Shown here: positions 11,339 through 46,674 of the stretch, in pieces
Numbering within the stretch: position 1 is the first letter of the stretch
Layout of the letters: every line of letters begins with the position of its first letter
Position numbers and translations under genes: made by a program
The notes under the pieces: model-generated
What the model saw: only the letters and a program-made list of their open reading frames with translations
The model's database searches: none
Told to the model about the DNA's origin: nothing
DNA from: Frankia nepalensis
GTDB lineage: Bacteria; Actinomycetota; Actinomycetes; Frankiales; Frankiaceae
Assembly (NCBI RefSeq): GCF_016786325.1
Contig: NZ_JADWYU010000099.1
Location: 1-64,000, forward strand
Length of the DNA stretch: 64,000 bases
Direction of reading: 5' to 3'

Positions 11339-12421
11339 TCAGCTCCGCAGGCTGTGACGACCCCGTCCGCCGAAAACGGGGAGTGTGAGGTGGTTCGCGA
11401 GGCCGGGAGGCGCCGCGACGACGGCGGGAATCGCGTTGAGCCCGTGCATGGCGACCGTCAGCGACGTGGGCCGGCGGGCGTCCTGTTCGGTGCTCAACGT
11501 CATCTCGGTGCGCAACGTCGGCTCGCCGGAGATCTCCAGTATCCAGCGGCAGTGCCCGGTGGGCCAGGCGGGAGCGACATCGTCGGTGACGCGCCACACG
11601 TACTCGACGGTGGCGAGGGGCCTGCCGGCCGCGATGCCGACGAACCTGAAGCGGGTGGCGACGACGGTCCCGGGTGCGTATTCTCCGGAAGGTGCGCTGA
11701 GCGGCACAGGAGTCGTCGCGAGTTCCCGTTCGTACTGGATATCGTCGAGGTGCTCACCCATCGCCTCGACGAGAAGGGTCAGCGCCGCGGCATACGGGGA
11801 GTTCTGGGCGTCCTCGAAGAGGCCGTACATCCCCGCGGGAGCGTCCGGGGGAAGCCCGAATCCCATGAAAGCCATGGTCGACGACTGGTAGTCGTGCATG
11901 TTGACGATCTCGGTCACCTTGACGTGGTCCACGCGCCGGCAGACCCTGGTCATCGTGATGGGCCACAGGTCGAGGGCAAATCCTGGGGTCATGCCGGCCG
12001 CGTAGAAGGTGCTTTGGCCTGCCTCGCAGGCCGCGGTCAGGCGCGCGATGATCTCCGGCGTGACGTGGGCGGGCGCCAGACCCGGCCTGATGTAGAGGAA
12101 CAGATCGACCGCGCTCGCGATGACGTTCTTGCCGGACTCCAGTAATCGGGCGATGTCGTCCACTGGCTGGTCCAGGGACACAAGAGTCGTACCGAGGGCG
12201 TTGTACAGGACGCATTCGGCCTCGGTCGCGATCAGTGCGTCCACGTCGTCGGTCGCGGTCACGCCCAGCCTCGGGCGGCCGACGAAGTCACCGGCGTCCC
12301 GACCTATCTTGGCGGGTAGGTAGGTCCGCAGCCCGACCAGTTCCAGCTCCGGCCGTTCGAGGATGCCGCGCAGCGAATGCAGGCCGACGTTTCCTGTGCC
12401 CCACTGGATGACCCGTGCCAT
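11339..12421 (-). CDS. diaminopentanoate-dehydrogenase/DapB-like oxidoreductase (paralogue 1)
   Basis: 360 residues from the ATG at 12421 (GGAG seven bases upstream). The N-terminal Rossmann fold begins VIQWGTGNVGLHSLRGILERP, followed by ELVGLRTYLPAKIGRDAG; the C-terminal domain carries the conserved GMTPGFALDLWPI. This is the actinobacterial family long annotated as dihydrodipicolinate reductase and now grouped with NAD(P)H-dependent amine dehydrogenases such as 2,4-diaminopentanoate dehydrogenase. A cyclic amino-acid substrate is not implied; these genes travel with lipid and steroid-type catabolic genes. It is the first of three paralogues between 11 and 18.5 kb. Confidence 0.8.
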   Translation of the reverse strand: MARVIQWGTGNVGLHSLRGILERPELELVGLRTYLPAKIGRDAGDFVGRPRLGVTATDDVDALIATEAECVLYNALGTTLVSLDQPVDDIARLLESGKNVIASAVDLFLYIRPGLAPAHVTPEIIARLTAACEAGQSTFYAAGMTPGFALDLWPITMTRVCRRVDHVKVTEIVNMHDYQSSTMAFMGFGLPPDAPAGMYGLFEDAQNSPYAAALTLLVEAMGEHLDDIQYERELATTPVPLSAPSGEYAPGTVVATRFRFVGIAAGRPLATVEYVWRVTDDVAPAWPTGHCRWILEISGEPTLRTEMTLSTEQDARRPTSLTVAMHGLNAIPAVVAAPPGLANHLTLPVFGGRGRHSLRS

Positions 12422-12457
12422 GTGATTGCTCCGCTGTCCTGGAAGGTCGATTGCCTG

Positions 12458-12474
12458 CATGGCATATCGCCATG
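12458..12474. promoter_or_regulatory. 17-bp palindrome upstream of paralogue 1
   Basis: CATGGC (12458-12463) and GCCATG (12469-12474) are perfect inverted repeats around ATATC, starting 37 bp before the start codon at 12421. It is a plausible operator. The rest of the 302-bp gap 12422-12723 holds no gene I can support. Confidence 0.4.
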
Positions 12475-19925: not shown

Positions 19926-21020
19926 TCAGCGGTACCGAGGGATCAGCTCCTTGCCGATGAGCTCGATCGACTCCATGATCCGCTCGTGTGGCACGTTGCC
20001 CATCTGCATGTGGATGATCACCTGGTCGACCCCGACCTGGTGGAAGGCGTCCAGGGTCTTCGCGCAGTCCTCCGGGGTGCCCGCCATGACGAAGCCGCCC
20101 TCGAGCAGGCCGTCAGCCACCGCCTTCGGGTCCGCGGAGATGGCGTCGAAGAACATCTTCGTCTCGCCCGCGCCGACGTGGGCGTAGCTCTTTGTGGGAG
20201 CGCCGTCCGGCCAACCGTTGAGCATGTACTGGTTACCTGCGAACGTGTGCTCCACGGTCTTCTCGGCGGCAAGTGTGCGCACGGCAGCGCGGTCGTAGCT
20301 GCACAGCCCGTTGACGAAGCCGGCGGTCTGGTTGTTGACCACGCCGCAGATCGGCTCGGCGCTGGTGATGTTCTCCTTGTAGGCGGCGATCGACGCCTCC
20401 AGTGACGGAGGGTCGGCCTTCAGCGCGAAGAAGAGCATGCCCAGGCCACGCTTCGCGGCGCGCTCCGCGTTGCCAGGCCCGACACCGCCTACCCACAGCG
20501 GCGGGTGGGGCTGCTGGACCGGTCGCGGGTAGGTCGTGCGCGGCGGCATCTTCAGGTAGTCGCCGTCGAAGGACACCTTCTCCTCGGCGAGCAGCCGGGC
20601 CACCGCCTCGAGCCCCTCCTCCCACTGGGCGCGCGAGGTCTCCGGGTCGATGCCGAAGCCATAGAGCTCCTCGGGGGTGGTCGACCGGCCGGAACCAAGG
20701 TCGACACGGCCGCCGCTGAGGCAGTCCAGCATCGCGACCCGCTCCGCGATGCGGACCGGGTGGTTGTACTGAGGAGGCGTCAACGCCAGGCCGAAGCCGA
20801 ACCGGATGTGACTCGTCGCGTACGCCGCAGCGCCGAAAACGACCTCCGGCGCGGACATGTGCGAGAAGCCGCCGAGGAAATGGTGCTCGGTCAGCCAGAC
20901 GTAGTCCCAGTTGTGGCGGTCCGCGTGCACGATCTGATCCACCGTCTGGCGGACGACGCGGGCCTCCTCGGCACGGTCCGCGGGCGGGACGTACATCTCG
21001 TAGAAGAGCCCGAACTTCAC
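19926..21020 (-). CDS. LLM-class (luciferase-like) flavin-dependent oxidoreductase
   Basis: 364 residues of the bacterial-luciferase-like TIM barrel. MKFGLFYEMYVPP, then YVWLTEHHFLGGFSHMSAPE, FGFGLALTPPQYNHPVRIAE and RVDLGSGRS are the usual strand-end motifs; PHPPLWVGGVGPG is the later signature. The EHHF motif and asymmetric substrate loop resemble the alkanal-monooxygenase (LuxA-like) branch more than the short F420 reductases, but cofactor choice (FMN or F420) cannot be settled by eye. The promoter carries site B of the shared operator. It is the first gene of a minus-strand run with P450 and paralogue 3. Confidence 0.85.
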   Translation of the reverse strand: MKFGLFYEMYVPPADRAEEARVVRQTVDQIVHADRHNWDYVWLTEHHFLGGFSHMSAPEVVFGAAAYATSHIRFGFGLALTPPQYNHPVRIAERVAMLDCLSGGRVDLGSGRSTTPEELYGFGIDPETSRAQWEEGLEAVARLLAEEKVSFDGDYLKMPPRTTYPRPVQQPHPPLWVGGVGPGNAERAAKRGLGMLFFALKADPPSLEASIAAYKENITSAEPICGVVNNQTAGFVNGLCSYDRAAVRTLAAEKTVEHTFAGNQYMLNGWPDGAPTKSYAHVGAGETKMFFDAISADPKAVADGLLEGGFVMAGTPEDCAKTLDAFHQVGVDQVIIHMQMGNVPHERIMESIELIGKELIPRYR

Positions 21021-33856: not shown

Positions 33857-33980
33857 GCACGCCCTGGTTATGCCAGCCGCGGGCCGCCGGCGCCGTGGCC
33901 GCCCGGGTTGACGCACAGCGGGGCCATGCCGACCCCCGGAAGCGGTGCGGTCGGCGCCTGGCGGCCCGGAGGAGGTTCGC

Positions 33981-36269
33981 ATGATCGCCCATTCCTACTG
34001 CCGGATCTGCCCTGCGCTGTGCGGGATCACCGTGACCGTCGACGACGCGACCGGGCGCGTGACCAGTGTGGACGGGGACCCGGACCATCCGCTGTCCCGC
34101 GGATTCACCTGCAGCAAGGGCCGCGCGCTGGCCGAGGATCACAACGCGCCCGACCGGCTCGACGGGTCGCTGCGCCGCGCCGGTGAACGGTGGGAGCCGG
34201 TCAGCTCGGACGCGGCGGTCGCCGAGATCGGCGACCGGCTGAGCGAGATCGTCGACCGGCACGGCCCGCGTTCGGTCGGTCTCTATGTCGGCACGCGCGG
34301 CTACGAGGTTCTCCAACTGGCTGGCGCGACCGCCTGGCTGAGCGGCGTCGGGTCTCCGTCGCTGTACTCGACGTACACCATCGACCAGCCGGCCAAGGAC
34401 GTGGCGCGTGCCCTGCACGGCAGCTGGCCCGCGGGTTTCCAGGAGTGGGCGAGCTCCGACGTCGTCATGTTCGTCGGCAACAACCCGGTGGTGTCGGCCA
34501 CCGCGTCCTACATCGGGATGCCGGTCACGAACCCGCGCCGGGCGATCCGGGAGCGCCGCCGCGCCGGCCTGAAGGTGATCGTCATTGACCCGCGGCGCAC
34601 CGAGACGGCCGCGCTCGCCGACATCCACCTGCAGCCGGTGCCGGGAACGGACGGAGCCGTCCTCGCCGGGATGGTGCACGTCATCCTGGCGGAGGGCCTG
34701 TACGACTCCGCGTTCACCGAGCGTTACACCGAAGGTCTCGAGCGGCTGCGGGCCGCGGTCGCGCCCTTCCACCCGGAGGCGGCCGCGGCGCGCGGCGGCG
34801 TGGCGGTGGACCAGCTGATCGCCGCGGCCCGGCTGTTCGCCACGGCCGGCCGCGGCTGCGCCATCGGCGGGACCGGCATCAACATGGCGCCGCACCCGAT
34901 CCTCAGCGAGTACCTGCTCCTGTGCCTGAACAGCCTGTGCGGCAGATACATGCGGGCGGGCGACCAGGTCGCGAACCCGGGCGTGCTCGGCGGCGGCCGC
35001 TCACTGCGCGAGGGCGTCCGGGGGCCGCGCCAGCCGTGGGGAAAGGGCCCGCAGCCACGCGTGCGCGGCCTGTCCAACCTGTACGACCAGCTCCCGGCGG
35101 CCGCGCTCGCCGACGAGATCCTCACACCGGGTGACGGGCAGCTGCGCGCACTGATCGTCTCCGGCGGGAACCCGCTGGTGGCGCTGCCGGACATGGCCAA
35201 GTCGATCGAGGCGCTGAGCTCGCTCGAGCTGCTGGTCACCCTCGACGTGCGCATGACCCAGACCGCTCGCCTGTCCGACTTCCTGATCGCCGCTCCGATG
35301 AGCCTGGAGCGGTCCGACGTCACGCTCGCCAGCGACCTGAGGTTCCCGAAGGCCTTCGCGCAGTACGCCCCCGCGGTGGTCGCGCCGCCGGGCGACCTCG
35401 TGGAGGAGTGGGAGTTCTTCTGGGCGCTCGCGCGCCGCATGGGCACCCAGTGGGACCTGCGCGGGCGGATCGGCATGCCGGTCCCGATCAACGTGGCGGA
35501 CACCTTCGACCCGCGGGTCAAGCCAACCACCGAGCAGCTCTGGGAAATACTGTGCACGGGGTCCCGGATACCGCTGGCCACGCTGCGAGAACACCCCCAT
35601 GGCCTCGCGCCGGAGCTCCCGCCGGTGGTCGTGCGGCCCGACGAGCGGCTGGACGACGGCCAGCGGCTGGCGCTGGCGGACCCGCTCATGATCGACGAGC
35701 TTGCCGCCGTCGCGGCCGAGCGCACCGCCGTGGGCCCCGCGCCGGGGCAGCCGACGGGTCGGCGCCGGGCGGGGACCACGCCCCCGGCTGACGCGCAGGA
35801 CCTGCCCTACCTGCTGATCAGTCGGCGGCTGTCGCGTTACCACAATTCCTGGGGCCAGACGCTCGGCGACTACCGGGCCCGCCATGGCGGCAACCCGCTG
35901 CGGATCCATCCACTCGACCAGGCGGAGCTCGGCCTGTCCGACGGCGACCTGGTCCGGGTCGTCTCCGCCAGGGGGAGTGTCGTCGCGCCCGTCGAGCAGG
36001 AGGACGCGCTGCGCCGCGGCGTCGTGTCGATGGCGCACTGCTGGGGAGCGGCCGACGGCGCGGGCGACCCCCTCGTCGACGGCGCCAACACCAGCATGCT
36101 CGTCGACACCGAGGCATCCTTCAGCCACGTGGTCGGGATGCCCAGGCAGAGCGCGATACCCGTACGCCTGCGACCGCTCGGGCCACCGGCGCCGGGTACC
36201 GACGGGAACACCCAGCCAGGGCCGGCCGCCCGCCGGCCGCCCGTCGCCGTGACCGAGGCGGGCGCCTGA
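33981..36269 (+). CDS. molybdopterin-dependent oxidoreductase with N-terminal [4Fe-4S] site
   Basis: 762 residues of the DMSO-reductase superfamily. The N-terminal cluster motif is C7-x2-C10-x3-C14-x29-C44 followed by SKG. Motifs such as MFVGNNPVV and VIVIDPRRTETAALAD bind the bis-MGD cofactor, and the C-terminal LGLSDGDLVRVVSARGSV is the molybdopterin dinucleotide-binding domain. There is no Tat signal (the protein starts MIAHSYCRICPALCG), so it is cytoplasmic, like formate-dehydrogenase-H or assimilatory types. GGAGGAGG precedes the ATG. The substrate is unknown. Standing between an SDR and an aldehyde dehydrogenase, it may oxidise or hydroxylate a pathway intermediate. Confidence 0.9.
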   Translation: MIAHSYCRICPALCGITVTVDDATGRVTSVDGDPDHPLSRGFTCSKGRALAEDHNAPDRLDGSLRRAGERWEPVSSDAAVAEIGDRLSEIVDRHGPRSVGLYVGTRGYEVLQLAGATAWLSGVGSPSLYSTYTIDQPAKDVARALHGSWPAGFQEWASSDVVMFVGNNPVVSATASYIGMPVTNPRRAIRERRRAGLKVIVIDPRRTETAALADIHLQPVPGTDGAVLAGMVHVILAEGLYDSAFTERYTEGLERLRAAVAPFHPEAAAARGGVAVDQLIAAARLFATAGRGCAIGGTGINMAPHPILSEYLLLCLNSLCGRYMRAGDQVANPGVLGGGRSLREGVRGPRQPWGKGPQPRVRGLSNLYDQLPAAALADEILTPGDGQLRALIVSGGNPLVALPDMAKSIEALSSLELLVTLDVRMTQTARLSDFLIAAPMSLERSDVTLASDLRFPKAFAQYAPAVVAPPGDLVEEWEFFWALARRMGTQWDLRGRIGMPVPINVADTFDPRVKPTTEQLWEILCTGSRIPLATLREHPHGLAPELPPVVVRPDERLDDGQRLALADPLMIDELAAVAAERTAVGPAPGQPTGRRRAGTTPPADAQDLPYLLISRRLSRYHNSWGQTLGDYRARHGGNPLRIHPLDQAELGLSDGDLVRVVSARGSVVAPVEQEDALRRGVVSMAHCWGAADGAGDPLVDGANTSMLVDTEASFSHVVGMPRQSAIPVRLRPLGPPAPGTDGNTQPGPAARRPPVAVTEAGA

Positions 36270-36349: not shown

Positions 36350-37813
36350 ATGGCAATCGCACCGCAGGACCGGGTCAAGACCCTGCGATCCGGCCTGGTC
36401 ATCGGTGACCAGTTCGTCGAGCATCCGGCGGCCGGGTTCATGGAGCACGTGAACCCGGCGACCGGCAAGGTCCAGAAGGAGTTCGCCATCGCCAGCCGCG
36501 ACGACGTCGACGCGGCGACGGCCGCGGCGCGCGCGGCGTTCGTCGACTGGCGCCGCTGGCAGCCGGACGCCCGTCGGGACGTGCTCAACCGGCTTGCCGA
36601 CCTGATGGACCAGAACGCCCAGGAGTTCGGCGTCATCTGCACGTTGGAGGTCGGCTCGCCCTTCTCCGAGTACAACGCCCGGTACGTGGCGGACTGGTTG
36701 CGGTACTACGCGGGATGGGCCGACAAGATCTCCGGCGAGACGATCCGCGCCTACCCGTCGACGGGCCTGGACTACACCGTCCCCGAGCCGGTCGGCGTCG
36801 TCGGGCTCATCGTGCCGGGCAACGGCCCGCTCGGCTTCTGCGGCATGGGCGGCGCGCCGGCGCTCGCCGCCGGCTGCACGCTCGTCATCAAGACGCCCGA
36901 GGTCGCGCCGTTCTCGCCGGTGCTGTTCGCGCAGCTCGCCCAGCAGGCGGGCATCCCGGCCGGCGTCGTCAACGTCGTCACGGGTGGCCCGGACGTCGGC
37001 GACGCGCTGGTACGGCACCCCGACATCGCCAAGATCGTCTTCACGGGCGGGACGGCGACGGCGCGCAAGCTGCAGGCCGCCTGTGCCGAGACGCTCAAGC
37101 CGATGGTGATGGAGCTGGGCGGGAAGTCGGCGAACATCGTCTTCCCCGACGCCGACCTCGCCCGGTCCAGCCAGCTCGCGGCCCGCTTCACCGGCAACGC
37201 CGGGCAGGGCTGCACGCTGCCGACCCGGCTGATGGTGCACGAGAGCGTCTACGACGAGGTCGTCGAGGGCCTGCTCGGCCACGTCGCGAAGGTCGTCGTC
37301 GGTGACCCGTTCGACCCGGCGACCACGATGGGCCCAGTGATCAACGGGGCGGCGGTCAACCGGATCCTCGGCATGGTGGACCGGGCCGCCACATCGGGCG
37401 CCGGCAAGGTCCTGACCGGCGGTGGCCGGGTCGGGGGTGAGCTCGCCGGCGGCTTCTTCGTCGAGCCGACCGTTCTCGGTGACGTCGACCCGACCTCCCA
37501 GATCGCCCAGGAGGAGGTCTTCGGGCCCGTGCTCTGCGTGATCCGGTTCGGCTCCGAGGAGGAGGCCGTGCGGATCGCCAACTCGACCGGCTTCGGCCTG
37601 GCCGCCTACGCCCAGACCAATGACATGGCCAGGGCGCACCGGCTGGTGCAGGCGCTGGAGGCGGGCAGCGTCCACATCAACGGCAGTGGCCCCGGCCCGA
37701 TCTCGCCGGCGCACCCGTTCGGCGGCATCAAGCAGAGCGGCTACGGCCGCCAGGGCGGTCTCGAGGGCATCCGGGAGTTCCTGCACACCAAGAACGTCCT
37801 GATCAACGTCTGA
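36350..37813 (+). CDS. NAD(P)-dependent aldehyde dehydrogenase
   Basis: 487 residues, full length for the ALDH family. The nucleotide-binding VFTGGTATARKL, general base Glu255 in MELGGKS, catalytic Cys288 in GQGCTLPTR and the C-terminal HPFGGIKQSGYGRQGG are all present. It oxidises an aldehyde to the acid. GAAGGGGAG lies before the ATG. It follows the molybdoenzyme by 80 bp with no terminator I can see, so cotranscription is likely. Aldehydes could come from the LuxC-like reductase or the alcohol dehydrogenases in the next cluster. Confidence 0.92.
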   Translation: MAIAPQDRVKTLRSGLVIGDQFVEHPAAGFMEHVNPATGKVQKEFAIASRDDVDAATAAARAAFVDWRRWQPDARRDVLNRLADLMDQNAQEFGVICTLEVGSPFSEYNARYVADWLRYYAGWADKISGETIRAYPSTGLDYTVPEPVGVVGLIVPGNGPLGFCGMGGAPALAAGCTLVIKTPEVAPFSPVLFAQLAQQAGIPAGVVNVVTGGPDVGDALVRHPDIAKIVFTGGTATARKLQAACAETLKPMVMELGGKSANIVFPDADLARSSQLAARFTGNAGQGCTLPTRLMVHESVYDEVVEGLLGHVAKVVVGDPFDPATTMGPVINGAAVNRILGMVDRAATSGAGKVLTGGGRVGGELAGGFFVEPTVLGDVDPTSQIAQEEVFGPVLCVIRFGSEEEAVRIANSTGFGLAAYAQTNDMARAHRLVQALEAGSVHINGSGPGPISPAHPFGGIKQSGYGRQGGLEGIREFLHTKNVLINV

Positions 37814-37873
37814 GCGGATCCGCCGCCGGGTGCGCGGACCGGGCCGGCCGTGGGGCGCCGGCTCGGTCAACAC

Positions 37874-37902
37874 TTGGCAGGTAAGTACGCACTTGCTAAA
37901 GT
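37874..37902 (+). promoter_or_regulatory. promoter with shared 14-bp operator (site E)
   Basis: TTGGCA (37874-37879) and TAAAGT (37897-37902) are 17 bp apart; the motif AGTACGCACTTGCT (37884-37897) lies between. The -10 ends seven bases before the ATG at 37909, so the message would be leaderless or nearly so. It should control the amidohydrolase and the LuxE/LuxC-like genes. Confidence 0.63.
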
Positions 37903-37908
37903 GGACGT

Positions 37909-39204
37909 ATGCGCATCGAAGACCTGATTTTGGTGAGCGTCGATGACCATGTGGTCGAACCGCCGGACATGTTCGAGCGGCACCTGCCGGCGAAGCACCG
38001 GGGCGACGATGCCTTCCCACGGGTCGTGCGGACCGAAGCGGGCGACGACGTCTGGCTCTACGATGGTCGGGCGTTCCCGAACATCGGACTGAACGCGGTC
38101 GCCGGCCGGCCGCGGGAGGACTATGGCGTGGACCCGACCAGCTTCGACGAGATGCGCCGCGGTTGCTGGGACGTCGCGGACCGCGTGGGCGACATGAACG
38201 CCAACGGGGTGCTCGGCTCGCTCTGCTTCCCGTCCTTCCCGCGACTGTGCGGTCAGGTCTTCGCCGAGGCGCAGGACAAGGACGTCGCGCTGATCGCGCT
38301 GCGGGCCTACAACGACTGGCACGTCGAGTCCTGGTGCGGCGCGGCGCCGGGCCGGTTCATCCCGCTCGGCCTGGTGCCGTTCTGGGACATCGAGCTGACC
38401 ATCCAGGAACTGACCCGCAACGCGGAGCGCGGCGTGAAGGCGGTGTCATTCTCGGAAAATCCGTCGAAACTGGGGTTCCCGAGCCTGCACTCCGACCACT
38501 GGGACCCGTTCTGGGCCGCCTGCCAGGACCTGGAAGTCGTCCCGTGCCTGCACATCGGCTCGTCCTCGACGATCGTGGTCACCGCGCCCGACGCGCCCTT
38601 CGACGTCACCGCGACGCTGCAGCCGATGAACATCGTCCAGGCCGCCGCCGACCTCGTCTGGTCCCCGATCTTCCGGAAGTTCCCGCGGATGAAGATCGCG
38701 CTGTCCGAGGGCGGGGTCGGCTGGCTTCCGTACTTCCTCGACAAGATCGACCTGGTCTACAAGAAGCAGTCCGGCTGGACCGGCCAGGACTACGGCGACC
38801 AGCTTCCCAGCGAGGTCTTCCGGGACCGGATCATCACCTGCTTCCTCGACGACCGGGTCACGCCGGACGTCGCCGAGCGCGCGGGGACCCAGAACATGAC
38901 CTGGGAATGCGACTTCCCGCACTCCGACTCGGACTGGCCGACCTCGCCCGAGGCCGCCCTCGCCGGCACGCAGGGCCTGTCCGACGACGTCATCAACGCC
39001 ATCACGCACGAGAACGCCAACCGGCTGTTCAGCTTCGACCCGTTCGCCCACCGACCGAAGGAGGACTGCACCGTAGGCGCGCTGCGGGCGGAGGCCGCCG
39101 CGGCCGGCGTCGACACCGAGCTGCGGTCCATGCGCACCCGGGCGCAGACCATGGGCGTCGCCGCGGATGCCCAGATCGGGCTTCTCGTGCCCGAGCGGAA
39201 CTAG
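37909..39204 (+). CDS. amidohydrolase-2-family metal-dependent hydrolase
   Basis: 431 residues. MRIEDLILVSVDDHVVEPPD carries the DxH metal motif at its usual place and fixes the start; no ribosome-binding site precedes it, consistent with a leaderless message. Later metal residues are in CLHIGSSS and CDFPHSDSDWP. The family includes decarboxylases and ring-cleaving hydrolases with a TIM-barrel fold (ACMSD-like). A C-terminal helical extension (about residues 385-431) is common in actinobacterial members that accompany lipid catabolism. First gene of the cluster with the acyl reductase pair 59 bp downstream. Confidence 0.87.
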   Translation: MRIEDLILVSVDDHVVEPPDMFERHLPAKHRGDDAFPRVVRTEAGDDVWLYDGRAFPNIGLNAVAGRPREDYGVDPTSFDEMRRGCWDVADRVGDMNANGVLGSLCFPSFPRLCGQVFAEAQDKDVALIALRAYNDWHVESWCGAAPGRFIPLGLVPFWDIELTIQELTRNAERGVKAVSFSENPSKLGFPSLHSDHWDPFWAACQDLEVVPCLHIGSSSTIVVTAPDAPFDVTATLQPMNIVQAAADLVWSPIFRKFPRMKIALSEGGVGWLPYFLDKIDLVYKKQSGWTGQDYGDQLPSEVFRDRIITCFLDDRVTPDVAERAGTQNMTWECDFPHSDSDWPTSPEAALAGTQGLSDDVINAITHENANRLFSFDPFAHRPKEDCTVGALRAEAAAAGVDTELRSMRTRAQTMGVAADAQIGLLVPERN

Positions 39205-39263
39205 CTTGTCCAACCTGGACGACCGGGGGCGGGCGGGTTCCCGCGCGGTGAGGAAAGGCGGGA

Positions 39264-40613
39264 ATGATGGGTGAGGTCGCCGACCAGCTGGTGGCGAGAT
39301 CCGCGCTCGCTCGGCCCTTCGACTACGACATCGACGAGATCCGGCCGTTGTGGCTCGCCGCCGCGCGCGAACGGTTCGCCGAGCGGCGCGAGCAGGTGCC
39401 GGCGCTGGCGGCCCGCGCCGACGACGTCGGCATCGACGGCATCGAGTCGTTCGCCGACCTGGTGCCGCTGCTGTTCAGCCACGACTCCTACAAGGCCTAC
39501 CCCAGGGACTTCCTGGACGCCGGACGCTGGGACCTGCTCGGACGGTGGCTGCGGTCGCTGTCCACGCGGCCGGTCCCCGCGATCGACGCCGCAGGCGTCA
39601 CCACCCAGGACGACTGGATCCGCCAGCTCGGCGCGGCCGACTTCCCGGTGTACGCGAGCAGCGGCACGAGCGGTCGCAGCTCGTTCCTGCCCGCGTCCCC
39701 GGCCGACCGCGAGTTCACCTTCGACTGCCTGCTGCGCACGCTGACCTGGCAGCACGGGGTGTCGCCGGCCGAGAAGCTGCCGGTCGTGGTGCTGGCCCCC
39801 TCGGCGGGCGGCAGCAGGGCGTTGGAGTACTACCGCCGCGTGGCGGAGCGCTACGGCGACCCCGCGCGTACCTTCTTCCTGACCGACGAGCCGGTCCGCC
39901 TGCACGACCTGAACCAGCTCGCCGCGCTCTCCCGCGCGGTCGCGGCCGGCACGGCCACGCCCGAGCAGATCGCCGCGTTCCGCCGGGACCAGCAGGACCG
40001 GGCGGCGCGGATCGACAGGGAATGGGACCGCCTCGCCGAACAGGTCGAGGGTCTCGCCGGCGAGCGCATCATCCTGCAGGGTTTCTGGCCGCAGCAGTAC
40101 GGCCTCGTCGAGCGGCTGCGGGCCCGCGGCCACGCGCGGCTCCCGCTGGCTCCCGACACGGTGCTCGGCGTCGGGGGCGGCACCAAGGGCGTCGACCTGC
40201 CCGCCGACTTCGCCGACCAGGTGTTCACCTTCTACGGACTGGACCCGAGCCGCGAGGCGGGTGGCTACGGAATGTCGGAGCTGTCCGCCGCGCTGCCCGA
40301 GGTGGCGGGACGGTACCGGCTCCAGCCCTGGATCATTCCGCTCGTGCTGGACGAGACCGGGACCGCGCTCGCCACGCCGGCTGACGGCCGGCTCGAAGGA
40401 CGGTTCGCCTTTCTCGACCTCGCCCTGGACGGACGTTGGGGCGGCCTCATCAGTGGTGACCGTGTGCTCGTCGACCTCGAGAGCTCCGGCTTCGCGGTGA
40501 TCCCGGGCACGGTGGCCCGCTACTCCGACCTGCGCGGCGGCTCCGACGACAGGCTCACCTGCGCCGGAACCGTCGACGCCTTCGTTCGCGGCCTTTCGGA
40601 GCAGACGTCATGA
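39264..40613 (+). CDS. LuxE-like acyl-protein synthetase
   Basis: 449 residues of the LuxE/PaaK-like adenylating family. VYASSGTSGRSSFLP (Tyr130 onward) is the nucleotide-binding loop, LGVGGGTKGVDLP follows, and YGMSELS is the second adenylate motif. LuxE activates a fatty acid as acyl-AMP, moves it to its own C-terminal Cys and passes it to LuxC. Only two Cys occur here; Cys433, 17 residues from the end, fits the known acyl-acceptor position. Two adjacent ATGs (39264, 39267) follow AGGAAAGG. The stop overlaps the LuxC-like start by four bases, as expected for subunits made in fixed ratio. Confidence 0.85.
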   Translation: MMGEVADQLVARSALARPFDYDIDEIRPLWLAAARERFAERREQVPALAARADDVGIDGIESFADLVPLLFSHDSYKAYPRDFLDAGRWDLLGRWLRSLSTRPVPAIDAAGVTTQDDWIRQLGAADFPVYASSGTSGRSSFLPASPADREFTFDCLLRTLTWQHGVSPAEKLPVVVLAPSAGGSRALEYYRRVAERYGDPARTFFLTDEPVRLHDLNQLAALSRAVAAGTATPEQIAAFRRDQQDRAARIDREWDRLAEQVEGLAGERIILQGFWPQQYGLVERLRARGHARLPLAPDTVLGVGGGTKGVDLPADFADQVFTFYGLDPSREAGGYGMSELSAALPEVAGRYRLQPWIIPLVLDETGTALATPADGRLEGRFAFLDLALDGRWGGLISGDRVLVDLESSGFAVIPGTVARYSDLRGGSDDRLTCAGTVDAFVRGLSEQTS

Positions 40614-41995
40614 CCTCTACCGACGCGACGGTCCGCGCGGACGTGCTCGCGGTCCCGCACATCGTGAAGGGCGAGCTCGTGCGTGGGCGGGCGCGCTCCT
40701 ACGGGCGCTTCGTCACCCCGGAGCTCGACCTCGACTCCCTCGTCTGGGGACGCCAGGAACTCGGCCCGGCCTTCGACGTCGCCGTCGCCGAGGTCATCGA
40801 CCTGCTCGACGAGGTCGGACGCAGGCTCGACCCGGACACGAATCCGTGGCTGCGGGACTCCCTCGACCAGGCGCTGCGGGACGCCCGGCTGTCGCCACGG
40901 CTGATCGAGTACTCGTACCGCGGGCTTGGTGAGCTGTTCTCCCGGCGTTCGCTCGAGTTCCAGCTCGAGTCGGAACTCGGGGCCTACGGCTCCGGCGGAT
41001 GGGTCGCCCAGAGCGATCCCTGGGGCGGCGGCCACCACATCCGGGCCTTCCCGCCCCGCCTGGCGCACGTCGTCGCCGGCAACACGCCCGGCACCGCGGC
41101 GGTGACCATCGTGCGCGGCGCGTTGACCCGCGGCGTGAACCTGATGAAGCTGGGCTCGGACGACCTGCTCACGGCCTCGGCGATTCTCCGGACGATGGCC
41201 GAGGTGGCGCCCGGGCATCCGACGACGAAGTCGTTCACCGCCGTGTACTGGCGTGGTGGCGACGCCGAGATCGAAGGCGCGCTGTTCCGGCCGCAGTACT
41301 TCGACAAGATCGTTGCCTGGGGCGGCGAGGCGGCCATCCGCAACGCGCTCAGCTATGTCGGCCCGGGTATCGAACTCGTCGCGTTCGACCCGAAGGTGTC
41401 GATCTCGCTGGTCGGCCGGGAGGCGTTCGCCTCGCCGGAGGCAATGCGGGAGTCGGCGGTCGCCGCGGCGACGGACTCCGCGCTATACAACCAGAACGCC
41501 TGCGCGTCCAGCCGCTTCATCTACGCCGAGGGAACACCGGACGAGCTCGCGCCGTGGTGCCGGATGCTCGCCCAGGAACTCGGCGTGGACCGGGCGCTGT
41601 CCGACGGCTCCGGGGTGCCGGTGCCCGGCGAGGTCCGGGCGGCTGTCGAGGCGGCACGTTTCCTGGAGCCCGAGTTCCAGGTGCTCGGCTCGCTCCGCAC
41701 CGGAGTGGTGGTGCTTTCGTCGGCACCGGTCGACTTCCACCCCGACGGCAAGGTCGTCAACGTGGTCGCCGTGCCGAGCCTCGACGAGGCGGTGTCCTAC
41801 GTGAACGTCGCCACCCAGACGATCGGGATCTACCCGGCCGCGCGGGCGCCGGAGCTTCGCGACCGGCTCGCGGCGGCGGGCATGCAGCGCCTGGTCGCCC
41901 TGGGAGCGGTGGCTACCAAGGTGCCAGGCGTGCCGCACGACGGTTTCTACCCGCTGCAGCGGCTGGTCAGGTGGCTGGTCGACGACAGCGGCTGA
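40610..41995 (+). CDS. LuxC-like fatty acyl reductase
   Basis: 461 residues related to LuxC acyl-CoA/acyl-protein reductases of the aldehyde-dehydrogenase superfamily. VVAGNTPGTAAVTIVRGALT, followed by NLMKLGSDDL, is the cofactor region, and Cys298 in NQNACASSR is the predicted thioester-forming nucleophile. It reduces an acyl group delivered by LuxE (or as CoA ester) to an aldehyde with NADPH. The start overlaps the LuxE-like stop (ATGA). Neither luxD nor luxAB is adjacent. The next gene is a hotdog thioesterase that could supply free acid. Confidence 0.87.
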   Translation: MTSTDATVRADVLAVPHIVKGELVRGRARSYGRFVTPELDLDSLVWGRQELGPAFDVAVAEVIDLLDEVGRRLDPDTNPWLRDSLDQALRDARLSPRLIEYSYRGLGELFSRRSLEFQLESELGAYGSGGWVAQSDPWGGGHHIRAFPPRLAHVVAGNTPGTAAVTIVRGALTRGVNLMKLGSDDLLTASAILRTMAEVAPGHPTTKSFTAVYWRGGDAEIEGALFRPQYFDKIVAWGGEAAIRNALSYVGPGIELVAFDPKVSISLVGREAFASPEAMRESAVAAATDSALYNQNACASSRFIYAEGTPDELAPWCRMLAQELGVDRALSDGSGVPVPGEVRAAVEAARFLEPEFQVLGSLRTGVVVLSSAPVDFHPDGKVVNVVAVPSLDEAVSYVNVATQTIGIYPAARAPELRDRLAAAGMQRLVALGAVATKVPGVPHDGFYPLQRLVRWLVDDSG

Positions 41996-42018
41996 TTCCG
42001 GGAGCCAGTGACACGACG

Positions 42019-42033
42019 GCACCCGTCGGGTGC
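42019..42033 (+). terminator. small hairpin after the acyl reductase genes
   Basis: GCACCC and GGGTGC flank GTC, 24 nt after the LuxC-like stop. A six-base stem is weak, so termination here would be partial. Confidence 0.3.
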
Positions 42034-42226
42034 GGTCTCCAGGGGTTGTCGTCGACGGCCCTGGCACGGTTTGGCGCCGGACAGGCACGAGCGGTGGGAG
42101 ATCGCACCGACGGCCCTTTTTCTATGGGAAACGACCGCGCGGGGACGGCCGTGTTCGGATCGCCGCCTGACGGTCGTCGGCAGGCGGATGCGGAGCGGCG
42201 TAGTGGCTGCCGGAGAGGAACGCAGG

Positions 42227-43042
42227 GTGGCGGAGCAGACCGATTCGACGGTGTTCGGCGACGAGTTCACGCGCTTCGTCGGCTATGAGTCGGTCCGTAC
42301 CTCGGAGACGACGGCCTCGTCCTGGGTACCCGCGCGGGCGGACCTGCTCGACGCCGACGGCGCGCTGCTGCCGGTCGTGCTTTCCTACCTCGTGGACTCG
42401 ACACCCGGTGTGGTGTGCGGCGCGGCGGCGCTGCCTGACTGGGTGATCACCACCGATCTGCACATGCAGGTCTTCGACCGCCACGTGAAAGGCCCGGTGC
42501 GCGCGGACGCGACCCTGGTGCACGCCAACCGGGTCGGCGTGCTCGCCGAGGTGAACGTCGTGGACGAGGGCGACGGCGAACGTCTCGTGGCGACCGGGTC
42601 GGTCAACCACGCGCGAGTTCCGCTGACCGGTTCGCTCGACGTGCCGATCATGCCGGTCGGTGTGCGTTACCACGGGCCGGCCGACGCCGCGCCACCCGGT
42701 GACCGGCTGGCACGTGAGATCGTCTTCGAGCCGGAGGCGGCGGGCGGGGAAATCGGCACGGCCCTCACCCCGCTGAGCACCAACCCACTCGGCATCATGC
42801 ACGGCAGCGTTACCTCGGCGTTGTCGATCAGCGCGGCAACCTCATGCGTCGGGGGAGACCTGAAACTCACGGAACTGCTGGTGCGGTTCTGCGGCAGCGT
42901 CCGTAAGGGGCCGGCCCGAGCGAATGCCGAGCTGGTCCGCTCCGACGAGTCCGGTTCCCTGGTCAGGGTTGCCGTGCGCGACGATTCGTACCCTCAGCGG
43001 ATCGCCGTGTTGGCGTCGGTCAGGTTTGGCTCCCCGGGATAG
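42227..43042 (+). CDS. double-hotdog acyl-CoA thioesterase-like protein
   Basis: 271 residues from the GTG at 42227, chosen for GGAGAGGA eight bases upstream. Two hotdog units: the first around SSWVPARADLLDADGALLPV with DLHMQVFDRHVKGPVRADATLV, the second around PLSTNPLGIMHGSVTSAL with ELLVRFCGSVRKGPARANAEL. NPLGIMHGS resembles the PaaI/4HBT active-site helix. It should cleave an acyl-CoA or acyl-protein thioester to the free acid, or transfer acyl groups. Downstream of the LuxE/LuxC-like genes it may take the place of the LuxD thioesterase (inference). The 231-bp gap before it has no gene. Confidence 0.75.
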   Translation: MAEQTDSTVFGDEFTRFVGYESVRTSETTASSWVPARADLLDADGALLPVVLSYLVDSTPGVVCGAAALPDWVITTDLHMQVFDRHVKGPVRADATLVHANRVGVLAEVNVVDEGDGERLVATGSVNHARVPLTGSLDVPIMPVGVRYHGPADAAPPGDRLAREIVFEPEAAGGEIGTALTPLSTNPLGIMHGSVTSALSISAATSCVGGDLKLTELLVRFCGSVRKGPARANAELVRSDESGSLVRVAVRDDSYPQRIAVLASVRFGSPG

Positions 43043-43251
43043 CGGGCGCGCCGTGCCGTCATTTCGAGTCCCTCTCGGTCGACATCCCGTCCGGTTTGCC
43101 GTGGGCCAGCACGCCCAGCCGGGAAGGGCGGCGCATGTCGGACGAGGAAACCGTGGAAACAGCGGAGGGCGGCGGATCATGACCGGCCCAGGAACGAGGC
43201 CTGGTGATCGACGAGCGGACCAGCGGTCTTTCTAGCCGGGAGCAGGTGGGT

Positions 43252-44109
43252 ATGGGACTTCTCGAGGGACAGGTCGCCCTTGTCACCGGAGGAGCGCGGG
43301 GCCAGGGAAGGGCGCATGCCATCGCCTGCGCCCAGCAGGGGGCTGACGTCGTCCTCGTGGATGTTTCCGGAAAGGCGGCCGACGTCGACTACGGGCTGGC
43401 CACGGCCGAGGACATGGCGGAAACGGTGCGCCTCGTCGAGGAGCTCGGCCGGCGCGCGCTCGCGTTCGACTGTGACGTCCGGTCCCAGGAGCAGCTCGAC
43501 GAGGCCGTGGAAGGCGCCCTGGCGGAGCTCGGGCGGATCGACATCCTTATCGCCAATGCCGGAATCTGGTCGCGAGGAAAGTTCTGGGACCTCACCGAGG
43601 AATCCTGGAACGAGATGATCAGTATCAACCTGAGCGGGGTCTGGAGGGCAGCCAAGGCCGTTGCCCCACACATGATCGAACGCGGGAGCGGCTCGATCGT
43701 CATAATCTCCTCGGTCAACGGCATCGAGCCCGGCCCCTTCTACGCGCACTACATCGCCGCGAAGCACGGGGTCATCGGCCTGATGAAGGCGGTCGCCCTC
43801 GAGCTGGCCCCGCACGGGATCCGGTGCAACGCCATCTGCCCGGGCGCGATCGACACGCCGATGACGAACAACCAGCCGGGCTGGAACATCTTCGCCGGAC
43901 ACGACCACGGCACGGAAGCCGACATGATCGCGGGCGGATACCACTATGGGGCGCTGCGTGGCACGACGTTCCTGAAGCCAGAGGTGATCGCGAACGCGGC
44001 CGTCTACCTGAACTCGCCGCAGGCCGCCCCCATCACGGGAGTGGTGCTGCCGGTGGACGCTGGACACCTCCTCCTGACGGGCTTCAATCTCGAACCGGTC
44101 AAAAGCTAG
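43252..44109 (+). CDS. mycofactocin-coupled SDR
   Basis: 285 residues. TGGARGQGRAHA gives the RGQGR cofactor loop and the insertion SGKAADVDYGLATAED with MAETVRLVEELGRR is the mycofactocin-coupled type, as in the SDR at 13.8 kb. The active site has SSVNG and YIAAK. It probably oxidises a secondary alcohol with non-exchanging NAD reoxidised by mycofactocin. The ATG at 43252 follows GGGAGCAGGTGGG; a longer frame starts at 43204. It is followed after 49 bp by the NDMA-type alcohol dehydrogenase, which uses the same redox partner. Confidence 0.85.
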   Translation: MGLLEGQVALVTGGARGQGRAHAIACAQQGADVVLVDVSGKAADVDYGLATAEDMAETVRLVEELGRRALAFDCDVRSQEQLDEAVEGALAELGRIDILIANAGIWSRGKFWDLTEESWNEMISINLSGVWRAAKAVAPHMIERGSGSIVIISSVNGIEPGPFYAHYIAAKHGVIGLMKAVALELAPHGIRCNAICPGAIDTPMTNNQPGWNIFAGHDHGTEADMIAGGYHYGALRGTTFLKPEVIANAAVYLNSPQAAPITGVVLPVDAGHLLLTGFNLEPVKS

Positions 44110-44158
44110 CCGACCCGCACCGAGGCAGCCGCCTGGACGCGGCCGGCGAGGAGGACAC

Positions 44159-45277
44159 GTGAAGAGCAACGCAGCCGTCATCTACGAGCAGCCCGGCAAG
44201 TGGCAGATCACCGAGATCGAGGTCGGACCGCCGCGGCAGGGCGAGATCGTTGTCCGGATGGTCGCGGCTGGGCTGTGCCACTCCGACGACCACGTCGCGA
44301 CCGGCGACATGCCATTAACCGGCGCGATTCCGCTCGTCGGCGGCCACGAAGGCGCGGGCATCGTCGAGGCCGTCGGCCCGAACACGCAGGGGTGGGAGGT
44401 CGGCGACCACGTCGTGCTTCCGTTCCTCCCCTCGTGCGGTCGTTGCCGTTGGTGCGCGTCGGGCATGCAGAACCTGTGTGACAACGGGGCCCGGACGCTG
44501 TCGGGGGCACGCGAGGACGGCACGAGCAGGCACACCCTCGACGGCAGGCCGCTCGGTCAGATGGCGGGTATCTCGACCTTCAGCGAGTACTCGACCCTGT
44601 CGGTCAACTCGGCCGTCAAGGTCGCGCACGACATCGATCTCGTGGCGGCCTGTCTGACGAGCTGCGGCGTGTCGACCGGCTGGGGCGCCGCGGTGAACTC
44701 GGCCCAGGTCCGCCCCGGTGACGTCGTCATCGTGGTCGGGGTCGGCGGGATCGGGATGAACGCGGTGCAGGGCGCGGCGCTCGCCGGCGCGGGCGTGCTC
44801 ATCGCGGTCGACCCGGTCGAATGGAAGCGCGAGCGCGCGCTGGAGTTCGGTGCCACCCACGCCGCCTCGTCGATCGAGGACGCGGCCGTCATCGCGCGTG
44901 CGCACAGCGACGGGCAGGGCGCCGATTCGACGATCGTGTGCGTGGGGGTCACCGACGGCGGGCACGTGGGGGCCGCGTTCTCGAGCATCCGGAAGGCGGG
45001 GACGTGCGTCGTCGTCGGTCTCGGCAACCCTCGGGCGGATCGCGCCGTCCCGCTGTCGCTGTACGAGCTGGTGCTGTTCCAGAAGCGGCTGCAGGGATCG
45101 CTGTTCGGCGCCTGCAACCCGACCCGGGACATCCCGGCGCTGCTGGAGCTGTATCGGTCGGGAAAACTGCGCCTGGACGAGCTGATCACGACCCGGTACT
45201 CCCTGGACCAGATCAACGAGGGGTTCGCGGACATGCGCGCCGGACGAAACATCCGTGGCGTCATCGTCTTCGAATGA
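44159..45277 (+). CDS. zinc-dependent alcohol dehydrogenase, NDMA/mycofactocin type
   Basis: 372 residues of the medium-chain dehydrogenase family. Catalytic zinc ligands lie in GLCHSDDH and GGHEGAG, the structural zinc in CGRCRWCASGMQNLC, and the Rossmann motif is GVGGIGMNAVQGA. The overall match is to the nicotinoprotein alcohol dehydrogenases that reduce the dye NDMA in vitro and need mycofactocin in vivo. It interconverts primary alcohol and aldehyde, which fits aldehyde made by the LuxC-like reductase or aldehyde feeding the ALDH. The GTG start has GAGGAGG upstream. A second copy of the family is at 51.8-52.9 kb. Confidence 0.88.
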   Translation: MKSNAAVIYEQPGKWQITEIEVGPPRQGEIVVRMVAAGLCHSDDHVATGDMPLTGAIPLVGGHEGAGIVEAVGPNTQGWEVGDHVVLPFLPSCGRCRWCASGMQNLCDNGARTLSGAREDGTSRHTLDGRPLGQMAGISTFSEYSTLSVNSAVKVAHDIDLVAACLTSCGVSTGWGAAVNSAQVRPGDVVIVVGVGGIGMNAVQGAALAGAGVLIAVDPVEWKRERALEFGATHAASSIEDAAVIARAHSDGQGADSTIVCVGVTDGGHVGAAFSSIRKAGTCVVVGLGNPRADRAVPLSLYELVLFQKRLQGSLFGACNPTRDIPALLELYRSGKLRLDELITTRYSLDQINEGFADMRAGRNIRGVIVFE

Positions 45278-45356
45278 ATGTCCGTGGCTGACGTGAACCC
45301 AAACCGATGAGCCTGGTTCGGGCGGGTCTGGGGTTGCCGTGGACAGATTGACGGTC

Positions 45357-45372
45357 GGTCACCCAGGTGACC
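45357..45372. promoter_or_regulatory. 16-bp inverted repeat before the second amidohydrolase
   Basis: GGTCACC (45357-45363) and GGTGACC (45366-45372) are perfect inverted repeats two bases apart, 130 bp before the ATG at 45502. It is a candidate operator. Confidence 0.4.
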
Positions 45373-45501
45373 CACCTCGACGTTGACCTCCCAACATCCA
45401 GAAACCGATTTTGCCGATCTTGAGACCGAGTTCTCAGTTGTCCATTGATGGAGTCGCGCTCCAGCGATGGACGTCACCGCGACCCAGGATGAGGTGCCGA
45501 C

Positions 45502-46674
45502 ATGGTGGTGGCAGGGCTGCGTGCCTTCGACGCGGACAATCACTACTACGAGACGTTGGACGCGTTCACCCGTCATATCGAGCCGGAGTTCGCCAGGCGC
45601 TGCATGCAGTGGGCGCAGGTGGACGGCAAGACGCGGTTGCTGGTCGGCGGCAAGGTGAACCGGTTCCTGCCGAACCCGACGTTCTCCGCGCTGGCCAGGC
45701 CGGGTGCGTTGGAGCAGTACTTCCGGGGTGAGGTCGGCGGCCCGGTGATCAAGTTGTTCGGCGAGCTGGCGCCGCCGCGGCCCGAGTACCAGAACCGGGA
45801 CGCGCGGCTGCGGGTGATGGACGAGCTGCGTCTCGATGGAGCCTTCTTCTTCCCGACCCTGGGTGTTGGCATGGAGCGCGCCCTCAAGCACGACCTGCCA
45901 GCGGCGCGGGCCGCGTTCCGGGCGTTCAACCGGTGGCTCGACGAGGACTGGGGCTTCGCCTACCAGAACAAGATCTTCGCCGCGCCGTACATCTCGCTGT
46001 CCGACCCCGCGGCGGCGGTCACGGAGCTGCGCTGGGCGCTGGACCGGGGGGTCCGGATCATCGTGATGCGGGCCGGGCCGGTGCTCACCGAGATGGGGTT
46101 GAAGTCGCCGGCGGACCGGATGTTCGACGAGTTCTGGGCGCTGGCCAACGAGGCTGGGGTGGTGTGCGCGTACCACGGCGGCGATGACGTGTACAAGGAG
46201 CTGATCGGGTGGTGGAGCGAGAGCGACGAGACCGAGGCCTTCCGGATGACTCCGCTGCGCAGCCTCCTGTCGCCGAGCGCCGTCGCCGACTCGTTCGCCG
46301 CGCTGCTCGCGCAGGGAACGCTACGGCGTAACCCGAACCTGCGGTTCGCGGCGATCGAGACCGGCGCGGACTGGGTGACCCCGCTGTTCAAGTCGTTGAA
46401 GAAGTCGTTCGTCCAGAACCCCGACACGTGGGCCGAGGACCCGCGTGAGACCTTCCGCCGGCAGGTCTGGGTGTCTCCGTTCCACGAGAACGACCTGGCG
46501 GAGCTGAAGACGATGATCGGCGCGGACCGGATGCTGATGGGCTCGGACTGGCCGCACGTCGAGGGACTCGCCGAGCCGCTCACGTTCACCAAGGACCTCG
46601 AGGCCGCCGGCTTCGACGACGCCGAGATCCAGCTGGTGATGCACGACAACGCGCAGGCACTGATCGGAGCCTGA
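45502..46674 (+). CDS. amidohydrolase-2-family metal-dependent hydrolase
   Basis: 390 residues. FDADNHYYETLDAF holds the N-terminal metal motif (DxNH form), AYHGGDD the middle His and GSDWPHVEG the C-terminal Asp. This is the subgroup common in actinobacterial lipid catabolism and unlike the 37.9-kb enzyme in sequence. The ATG follows GAGGTG by five bases. The preceding 224-bp gap has a 16-bp palindrome, so the gene probably has its own promoter. Substrate unknown; hydrolysis or decarboxylation of a CoA-pathway intermediate is the usual guess. Confidence 0.87.
   Translation: MVVAGLRAFDADNHYYETLDAFTRHIEPEFARRCMQWAQVDGKTRLLVGGKVNRFLPNPTFSALARPGALEQYFRGEVGGPVIKLFGELAPPRPEYQNRDARLRVMDELRLDGAFFFPTLGVGMERALKHDLPAARAAFRAFNRWLDEDWGFAYQNKIFAAPYISLSDPAAAVTELRWALDRGVRIIVMRAGPVLTEMGLKSPADRMFDEFWALANEAGVVCAYHGGDDVYKELIGWWSESDETEAFRMTPLRSLLSPSAVADSFAALLAQGTLRRNPNLRFAAIETGADWVTPLFKSLKKSFVQNPDTWAEDPRETFRRQVWVSPFHENDLAELKTMIGADRMLMGSDWPHVEGLAEPLTFTKDLEAAGFDDAEIQLVMHDNAQALIGA

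Follow-up and report, generated by a model that had tools for sequence, protein, structure and literature searches.

The genome of Frankia nepalensis contains, among genes of catabolic type, a pair of genes resembling luxE and luxC of luminous bacteria, which raises the question of what reaction such a pair may carry out at this locus and where its acid would come from. We analysed the 64,000 nucleotides that surround the pair (positions 1 to 64,000 of contig NZ_JADWYU010000099.1, assembly GCF_016786325.1; hereafter the window). A sequence-only reading of this DNA had named genes for a LuxE-like synthetase, a LuxC-like reductase, a double-hotdog thioesterase, a mycofactocin-type short-chain dehydrogenase/reductase (SDR) and an NDMA-type alcohol dehydrogenase (ADH), and had proposed that the thioesterase takes the place of LuxD. 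All five genes were found, the products of the last four scoring above the curated cut-offs of their families. Our analysis makes it likely that the LuxE-like protein and LuxC constitute a two-enzyme carboxylic acid reductase that serves a catabolic regulon, and that the acid does not come from a LuxD-like thioesterase.

According to this proposal, the LuxE-like enzyme would use ATP to adenylate a free carboxylic acid, whose acyl group it would then load onto Cys433 of its own chain. Upon contact of the two proteins, the acyl group would pass to Cys298 of LuxC, and LuxC would reduce it to the aldehyde at the expense of NAD(P)H. The pair would serve a catabolic regulon under a common palindromic operator, in which its closest partners would be a luciferase-like monooxygenase, DAP_DH_C-type oxidoreductases, the mycofactocin SDR and the NDMA ADH, and the acid would probably be made in, or imported by, that pathway and not be drawn from fatty acid synthesis via a LuxD-like thioesterase. 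A two-chain carboxylic acid reductase is the simplest reading because both cysteines and both folds are kept. In PMC8301110, LuxE is described as converting a free acid via acyl-AMP to a cysteine-bound acyl group, and LuxC as the reductase of the complex.

The LuxE-like and LuxC-like proteins

By both sequence and fold, the luxC product is clearly a LuxC-family reductase. It matched PF05893 with 164 bits against a curated cut-off of 21, and 7xc6_A was its sole strong sequence match in the PDB (E 9.8e-28 with the single sequence and 9.2e-54 with a profile). The structural model (predicted local distance difference test, pLDDT, of 89) also found 7xc6_A as its best fold match, with a TM score of 0.82 and an E-value of 9.6e-27, the next match having an E-value of 2.4e-16. 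Over 360 columns, the protein is 30% identical to LuxC of a luxC-luxD-luxE plasmid record, and Cys298 aligns with the LuxC cysteine of both 7xc6_A and this plasmid-encoded protein. Its score with NF052251, the equivalog model for LuxC of lux operons, was far below the cut-off (141.6 versus 750 bits), and the protein is therefore a relative of lux-operon LuxC, not this enzyme itself.

As a single query, the LuxE-like protein matched no Pfam or NCBIfam family at an E-value of 0.01, the LuxE models PF04443 and NF052244 included. Two profiles of the LuxE-like family were used, A1 with 20 rows and the wider A2 with 47 rows. At E-values up to 1, PF04443 matched 2 of the 20 members of A1 (best 0.0024) and NF052244 matched 4 (best 0.0002). 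When compared with the PDB, A1 placed the LuxE chain 7xc6_E first (E 1.1e-7) and a PaaK-type ligase second (5.6e-4). The LuxE-like identity given by the sequence-only reading, like that of LuxC, is borne out by the comparison of A2 with a profile built from three LuxE-family sequences (LuxE of the plasmid record and two NF052244 matches below the cut-off), which gave 98% and an E-value of 2.3e-13 over 354 columns, with Cys433 on the C-terminal cysteine of LuxE.

The model of the LuxE-like protein (pLDDT 88) has an adenylating fold of the PaaK kind, and PaaK, 2-hydroxyisobutyryl-CoA ligase and a phenazine biosynthesis protein (3hgv) headed the fold search. Such a fold fits LuxE, since LuxE itself is modelled on such a ligase in PMC8301110. 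Residues 425-431, directly before Cys433, were modelled with low confidence, which fits, without showing, a mobile arm. Adenylating enzymes and CoA ligases have a C-terminal domain, together with a loop that delivers CoA. In the LuxE-like protein this domain appears to be missing, and the would-be CoA-delivering loop would bear Cys433 itself. This bears on the possibility that the protein is a PaaK-type CoA ligase, that LuxC reduces free acyl-CoA and that Cys433 is no acyl carrier. Indeed, PaaK and HCL CoA ligases are its fold neighbours (Z about 24), and LuxC relatives in plasmid records are labelled acyl-CoA reductase. However, the chain stops 16 residues past Cys433 and, judged from this length and the architecture of the ligases, little or no C-terminal domain is therefore left; moreover, Cys433 is kept throughout, on the cysteine of LuxE. 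We thus regard a CoA ligase as improbable.

Most relatives of the LuxE-like protein in A1 have a CxCG motif near residue 408, which is absent from the window protein and from its nearest relative, L009. A single-sequence PDB search returned only TAL-effector repeats (E 4.9e-7 to 3.1e-5), which were assembled from many sub-significant repeat matches and dismissed as a repeat artefact. A TGA codon read in frame in several of the LuxE-like sequences was at first sight a candidate for recoding, but is an ordinary terminal stop with the cysteine before it. A PaaK search of the own genome gave only weak matches, and a LuxE family search of 229 genomes of one class gave matches in 4, none of them over the cut-off.

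Conservation and spread of the pair

An alignment scan of a species collection with two patterns gave 364 matching stretches, of which 80 named loci were kept; a scan with the single protein as query, unlike the alignment scan, gave no match in the collection. The named loci include Streptomyces, Nocardia, Gordonia, Novosphingobium, Variovorax and Pseudomonas. Together with 20 further loci, two of which are other pairs of the own genome, they make up the 100 loci considered below.

Both cysteines singled out by the sequence-only reading proved to be conserved. Cys298 is present in 86 of 86 rows longer than 380 residues and Cys433 in 105 of 105, the window being counted in each case, with 84 of the 105 Cys433 rows coming from the scan in which one of the two patterns includes that cysteine. 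Cys433 was also present in all 20 rows of A1, which were collected without a cysteine-bearing pattern.

The luxE-luxC arrangement is a conserved unit. A luxC gene was found within 400 bp and on the same strand in 67 of the 80 named loci, and anywhere in the stretch in 71, with 15 of these 80 stretches being shorter than 15 kb. In the 20 further loci it was adjacent in 19, one of which (L049) has the order luxC-luxE, and luxC also precedes the luxE-like gene in two plasmid records. The four-base overlap that had been reported for the window (ATGA at 40610-40613) was confirmed, and a gap of exactly -4 recurs in 59 of the 100 loci; in 10 of them no same-strand pair was called, these being our own gene calls. 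Across 84 LuxE-like/LuxC pairs, the pairwise identities of the two proteins correlate with a rho of 0.88, a value uncontrolled for shared ancestry.

A LuxE-family gene that scores below the NF052244 cut-off (82 bits) overlaps a luxC gene (PF05893, 266.9 bits) by four bases at L145:1426-4010. The four-base overlap is therefore older than the LuxE-like family or has arisen repeatedly. In Novosphingobium and relatives (L081, L108, L109, L134) two or three LuxE-like genes stand in tandem; in L081 and L134 the tandem is followed by a single luxC, as if several synthetases served one reductase.

The LuxE-like family is patchy yet widespread, and it is annotated as 'hypothetical protein'. It was present in 18 of 97 genomes of relatives, and a survey of the phylum, in which four candidates were scored per genome, matched 8 of 396 genomes, 4 of them nearly full-length. 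Among 17 matching plasmid records, 4 cover at least 80% of the protein, and all 16 annotated records give it the label just mentioned. The own genome (10.7 Mb, 398 contigs) carries three LuxE/LuxC pairs, on C327 (the window), C125 and C35.

Gene neighbourhoods of the pair

A search of 60 kb of a Gordonia otitidis contig with all called window genes placed all matches, from luxE to ADH, within one 9-kb block; outside the block, a weak SDR match was the only one. In this block the LuxE-like protein is 42%, a DAP_DH_C-type protein 41%, LuxC 54%, the luciferase-like monooxygenase 71% and an SDR 30% identical to its window relative. The mycofactocin SDR (66%) and the NDMA ADH (45%) are encoded divergently beside the LuxE-like gene, which upholds the tie to these two enzymes that the sequence-only reading had drawn. 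Gordonia aichiensis has the same block, with the mycofactocin SDR at 65-66% identity across both species. On one strand, the Gordonia gene order is LuxE-like, DAP_DH_C-type, luxC and luciferase-like monooxygenase (L060:8004-13038; L058). The G. otitidis block gave no match to the thioesterase, amidohydrolase, cytochrome P450 or aldehyde dehydrogenase (ALDH) of the window.

Luciferase-like genes were detected in 11 of the 100 loci (E 1e-5), the Gordonia loci included; only the two in Gordonia are close, at 736 bits, with scores of 26-82 for the others. DAP_DH_C-type genes occur in 8 of the 100, Gordonia again included, and both kinds together in 3, as compared with 0.88 expected if they were independent. 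The link of such genes to the pair hence rests on Gordonia and the window; near other pairs they are uncommon. Paired LuxA and LuxB genes were not recognised beside the pair in the window. The sequence-only reading had wished to see pairs lacking luxAB surveyed, a description to be used with care here, as one operator is common to the pair and a PF00296 gene.

The nearest pair found, L039, encodes a LuxE-like protein 47% and a LuxC 57% identical to those of the window. This locus has kept an ALDH (61%; Table 1), a P450 (50%) and a TetR gene (45%). Genes for ABC transporters (46-52%), for solute-binding proteins (31-33%) and for a protein that belongs to no Pfam family (38%) are likewise shared with the window. 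Within its 20 kb, no thioesterase, NDMA alcohol dehydrogenase or amidohydrolase was found. Amidohydrolase genes lie near the pair in 10 of the 100 loci and in two plasmid records (Novosphingobium US6-1 and Paraburkholderia WSM5005). With 10 of 100 loci and none in the Gordonia block, the amidohydrolase was rejected as a conserved partner; it is a recurring neighbour, not part of the core. Neighbours in Streptomyces L061 are thiolase, ChsH2-like proteins and branched-chain ABC genes, and in Variovorax L104 enoyl-CoA hydratase, nitronate monooxygenase and flavin oxidoreductase. The neighbours in these two loci and on the US6-1 and WSM5005 plasmids suit the catabolism of unusual acids.

Such surroundings would also suit a pair that runs in reverse, in which an aldehyde produced by ADHs is oxidised by LuxC to an acyl-cysteine, and the LuxE-like protein passes the acyl group on. 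This possibility draws on the NDMA-type ADH, mycofactocin SDR and ALDH of the window and on the SDR and ADH genes that diverge from the Gordonia LuxE-like gene. However, the known chemistry of LuxE and LuxC, as far as PMC8301110 describes it, has the reducing direction, three relatives (L037, L050 and L055) have an aldo/keto reductase gene directly behind luxC, and the window already contains an ordinary ALDH. We consider the reverse direction to be quite unlikely.

The thioesterase as a proposed substitute for LuxD

The sequence-only reading had the double-hotdog thioesterase replace LuxD, so that it would release acyl groups from acyl carrier protein or CoA for activation by the LuxE-like enzyme. 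The thioesterase gene does come next after luxC, in the same orientation, and its product has two hotdog domains over the cut-offs (4HBT_3C, 28.1 bits versus 24.1; 4HBT_3, 40.2 versus 24.3). In addition, Paraburkholderia WSM5005 has an annotated thioesterase of the PaaI family at a distance of about 0.8 kb from its LuxE-like gene, and a six-row hotdog profile found one match among 1,378 genes of the 100 loci, a distant relative at L050:684-1553, which is 7.7 kb away from the LuxE-like gene of that locus; this profile covered the hotdog family of the window protein, distant hotdog families lying outside the search. By contrast, relatives of the thioesterase were detected in 0 of the 80 named loci with tblastn (E 1e-8) and in 0 of the 100 loci with phmmer among called genes (E 1e-3). 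No match was found in the 20 kb around the nearest pair or in the searched 60 kb of the Gordonia otitidis contig, and the best matches in 57 other related genomes were about 32% identical, with E-values of 9.5e-9 or weaker. Moreover, the thioesterase gene is separated from luxC by 231 bp, whereas luxE and luxC overlap. With the neighbourhood searches nearly empty, we have rejected the hotdog enzyme as the likely replacement of LuxD and give it very little chance; the thioesterase is probably not part of the LuxE/LuxC unit. As for LuxD itself, its model found nothing in the 34 of the 48 called window genes that were scanned with Pfam, and PF02273 had no match in the own genome, in a search where the control matched nowhere either.

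An operator shared across the window

Six intergenic palindromes close to TAGTAAGTACTTACTT recur in the window, with matrix scores of 19-24 (positions 10789, 21060, 22363, 32875, 37882 and 52999), while the maximum in 20 Markov shuffles of the window was 14.2. Weaker intergenic sites are present at 870, 27025 and 57853 (15.7-16.1) and at 2631 (14.5), and three operator-like sites inside genes scored 14.6-15.2. The matrix was trained on such sites, and each of the six was therefore left out in turn. Five of them still scored above all other sites of the window, and the site at 37882 was the weakest of the six with 13.5, below that at 27025.

The site at 10789 is followed by a P450 gene (10608, -), that at 21060 by the luciferase-like monooxygenase gene (21020, -), that at 22363 by an ABC transporter gene (22581, +) and that at 37882 by the amidohydrolase gene of the luxE-luxC group (37909, +). 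The site at 32875 is flanked by genes for a cyclase (32718, -) and an SDR (33026, +), and that at 52999 by genes for an ADH (52909, -) and an MFS transporter (53277, +). A P450 gene and DAP_DH_C-type genes lie downstream of the luciferase-like gene on the same strand. From its sites, the operator is common to the LuxE/LuxC pair, the luciferase-like gene and these downstream P450 and DAP_DH_C-type genes and, recurring over at least 42 kb, it would mark much of the window as one regulon. All of these operator-sharing genes except the P450 also sit together in the Gordonia block. The TetR gene at 28617-29300 may encode the regulator. Near other pairs, no operator stands out (best scores 14.1 in L056, 13.5 in L039 and 14.8 on the Gordonia contig), given that shuffles of the window reached 14.2 with a similar matrix.

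A promoter with the shared operator had been placed before luxE and luxC. The operator and the -35 element at 37874 are indeed there, but the first gene behind them is an Amidohydro_2 gene that had been overlooked. Its ATG (37909) begins 7 bases past the promoter-like match, so that the transcript may be leaderless. Also missing from the sequence-only reading was the luciferase-like monooxygenase gene that stands behind the operator copy at 21060.

Points against the proposed reaction

Several observations weigh against a two-enzyme carboxylic acid reductase. The larger profile A2, compared with the PDB, still found LuxE first but with a weaker E-value of 0.0014, and the alignment of A1 with a single LuxE (92%, E 5.3e-7) ended short of the cysteine. 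LuxE 7xc6_E was not among the 50 fold matches listed for the LuxE-like model, which is an absence from the list and not a difference in fold. LuxE-like genes without luxC in the stretch occur in 9 of the 80 named loci, several of them on short contigs, and in L041. The Gordonia link counts as one independent case, because the two species are closely related, and the neighbours of the pairs are too varied to name a single substrate. No biochemistry on the LuxE-like family was found in the material surveyed. Lastly, an ALDH is encoded in the same cluster, which would be futile if it acted on the same acid as the pair; this favours different carboxyl groups or the reverse direction.

A possible one-carbon-loss pathway

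In the PDB, the co-regulated luciferase-like monooxygenase has as its nearest solved chains the luciferase-like monooxygenase 7bip (E 6.5e-31), the alkanal monooxygenase alpha chain 8cbb (6.2e-23), a methylenetetrahydromethanopterin reductase (1.1e-18) and 1brl (5.5e-18). One could imagine a lux-like catabolic pathway that strips one carbon from acids in which beta-oxidation is blocked, a scheme that we rate as unlikely. In it, the pair would reduce the acid to the aldehyde, the monooxygenase would add oxygen in Baeyer-Villiger fashion to give a formate ester, and hydrolysis, perhaps by an amidohydrolase-family enzyme, would yield alcohol and formate. The mycofactocin SDR and the NDMA ADH would oxidise the alcohol, and the formate could be taken by the molybdopterin oxidoreductase encoded at 33945-36269, for which formate dehydrogenase alpha was the best match in NCBIfam, although with 208 bits versus a cut-off of 666. 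Reduction before oxidation would make sense because of the Baeyer-Villiger step with its loss of formate. If this were true, the light-emitting LuxCE-LuxAB system would represent a single specialised offshoot of a more ancient scheme that is mostly dark.

Organization of the locus

The genes from 36350 to 46674 are all on the + strand (Table 1). Between the first Amidohydro_2 gene and luxE lie 59 bp, and between the thioesterase and SDR genes 161 bp. Only luxE and luxC are tightly coupled, since this gap and that of 231 bp after luxC set the thioesterase and SDR genes off. The SDR matched TIGR03971 with 341 bits (cut-off 300) and the ADH TIGR03989 with 530.8 bits (cut-off 440), and in the own genome the radical SAM model of mycofactocin, TIGR03962, scored 600.6 against a cut-off of 265.

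Table 1. Positions of the features discussed, numbered from the first letter of the window.
Feature	Position	Strand	Evidence or remark
DAP_DH_C-type oxidoreductase	11339..12460	-	PF19328; two more at 12724-13788 and 17396-18442
Luciferase-like monooxygenase	19926..21020	-	PF00296, 173.6 bits; behind operator copy 21060
Aldehyde dehydrogenase	36350..37813	+	PF00171; relative in nearest LuxE/LuxC neighbourhood (L039), 61% identity
Promoter-like match TTGGCA-17-TAAAGT	37874..37902	+	1 in 11.3 kb; shuffles mean 0.3
Palindromic operator copy TAAGTACGCACTTGCTAA	37882..37899		overlaps the promoter-like match
Amidohydro_2 protein, first gene of the promoter	37909..39204	+	PF04909, 117.5 bits
LuxE-like acyl-protein synthetase, 449 aa	39264..40613	+	profile comparison with LuxE; PaaK-type adenylating fold
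Cys433 codon TGC, proposed acyl carrier	40560..40562	+	aligned with C-terminal Cys of LuxE
LuxC-like acyl thioester reductase, 461 aa	40610..41995	+	PF05893; 7xc6_A by profile and fold
Cys298 codon, proposed catalytic acyl-Cys of LuxC	41501..41503	+	alignment
Double-hotdog thioesterase-like protein	42227..43042	+	PF20789 and PF13622; probably outside the conserved unit
Mycofactocin-coupled SDR	43204..44109	+	TIGR03971; 66% identical relative by Gordonia LuxE-like gene
NDMA-dependent alcohol dehydrogenase	44159..45277	+	TIGR03989; relative in Gordonia block, 45% identity
Second Amidohydro_2 protein	45502..46674	+	PF04909, 62.4 bits

Further genes of the window deserve mention in their own right. 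A GGDEF-EAL protein (47218-49551) is encoded between the luxE-luxC group and a gene for a CoA-transferase family III protein (49502-51757). The latter has 751 residues, with PF02515 in three stretches, and since most of its relatives in the neighbourhood of other pairs are only about half as long, it looks like a head-to-tail duplication. The three DAP_DH_C-type oxidoreductases of the window (PF19328) share 48-51% identity. A second PF00296 protein (59678-60736), by sequence nearer to F420-dependent methylenetetrahydromethanopterin reductases, is followed by an enoyl-CoA hydratase gene.

Comparison with known systems

LuxE homologues beyond luminescence are already known. PMC4772473 names RfbN of V. 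cholerae and AS87_03730 of Riemerella as LuxE-type genes outside bioluminescence; these are like the window gene in that respect, but belong to O-antigen and virulence settings, a distinction drawn from their description and not from their sequences. The mel2 locus of Mycobacterium marinum, as far as PMC1793995 describes it, is likewise an actinobacterial lux-like locus without reported light. It has LuxA-like and LuxC-like parts and a LuxD-like MelH and, according to its authors, no clear LuxE, whereas the core of the window locus is LuxE-LuxC. In searches of the PMC literature, with subscription papers and preprints lying outside this scope, no report of catabolic LuxE/LuxC pairs was among the papers listed.

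The closest parallel is with LuxC and LuxE of luminous bacteria (Photobacterium phosphoreum, 7xc6), which are a homologous reductase and synthetase with both acyl-cysteines aligned; here, too, a luciferase-family gene (PF00296) stands under the same operator. Unlike in the luminous systems, LuxD-type and paired LuxA/LuxB genes were not recognised beside the window pair, the neighbours are catabolic, the synthetase is about 80 residues longer and scores below PF04443 and NF052244, and the usual order of the pair is luxE-luxC with an overlap. The luciferase-like gene in the regulon and in the Gordonia block would bear on the origin of the light-emitting pathway. PaaK, 2-hydroxyisobutyryl-CoA ligase and the phenazine protein 3hgv are the nearest solved folds to the LuxE-like model; the LuxE-like family differs from these in having a cysteine close to its short C-terminus, and luxC is usually the gene that follows. 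Carboxylic acid reductase (CAR) is a single-chain enzyme with a phosphopantetheine carrier. The net reaction that we propose for the pair is the same as that of CAR, but it would be divided between two chains with cysteines as carriers. Enzymes that make aldehydes from free carboxylic acids and need no phosphopantetheine carrier are useful in synthesis.

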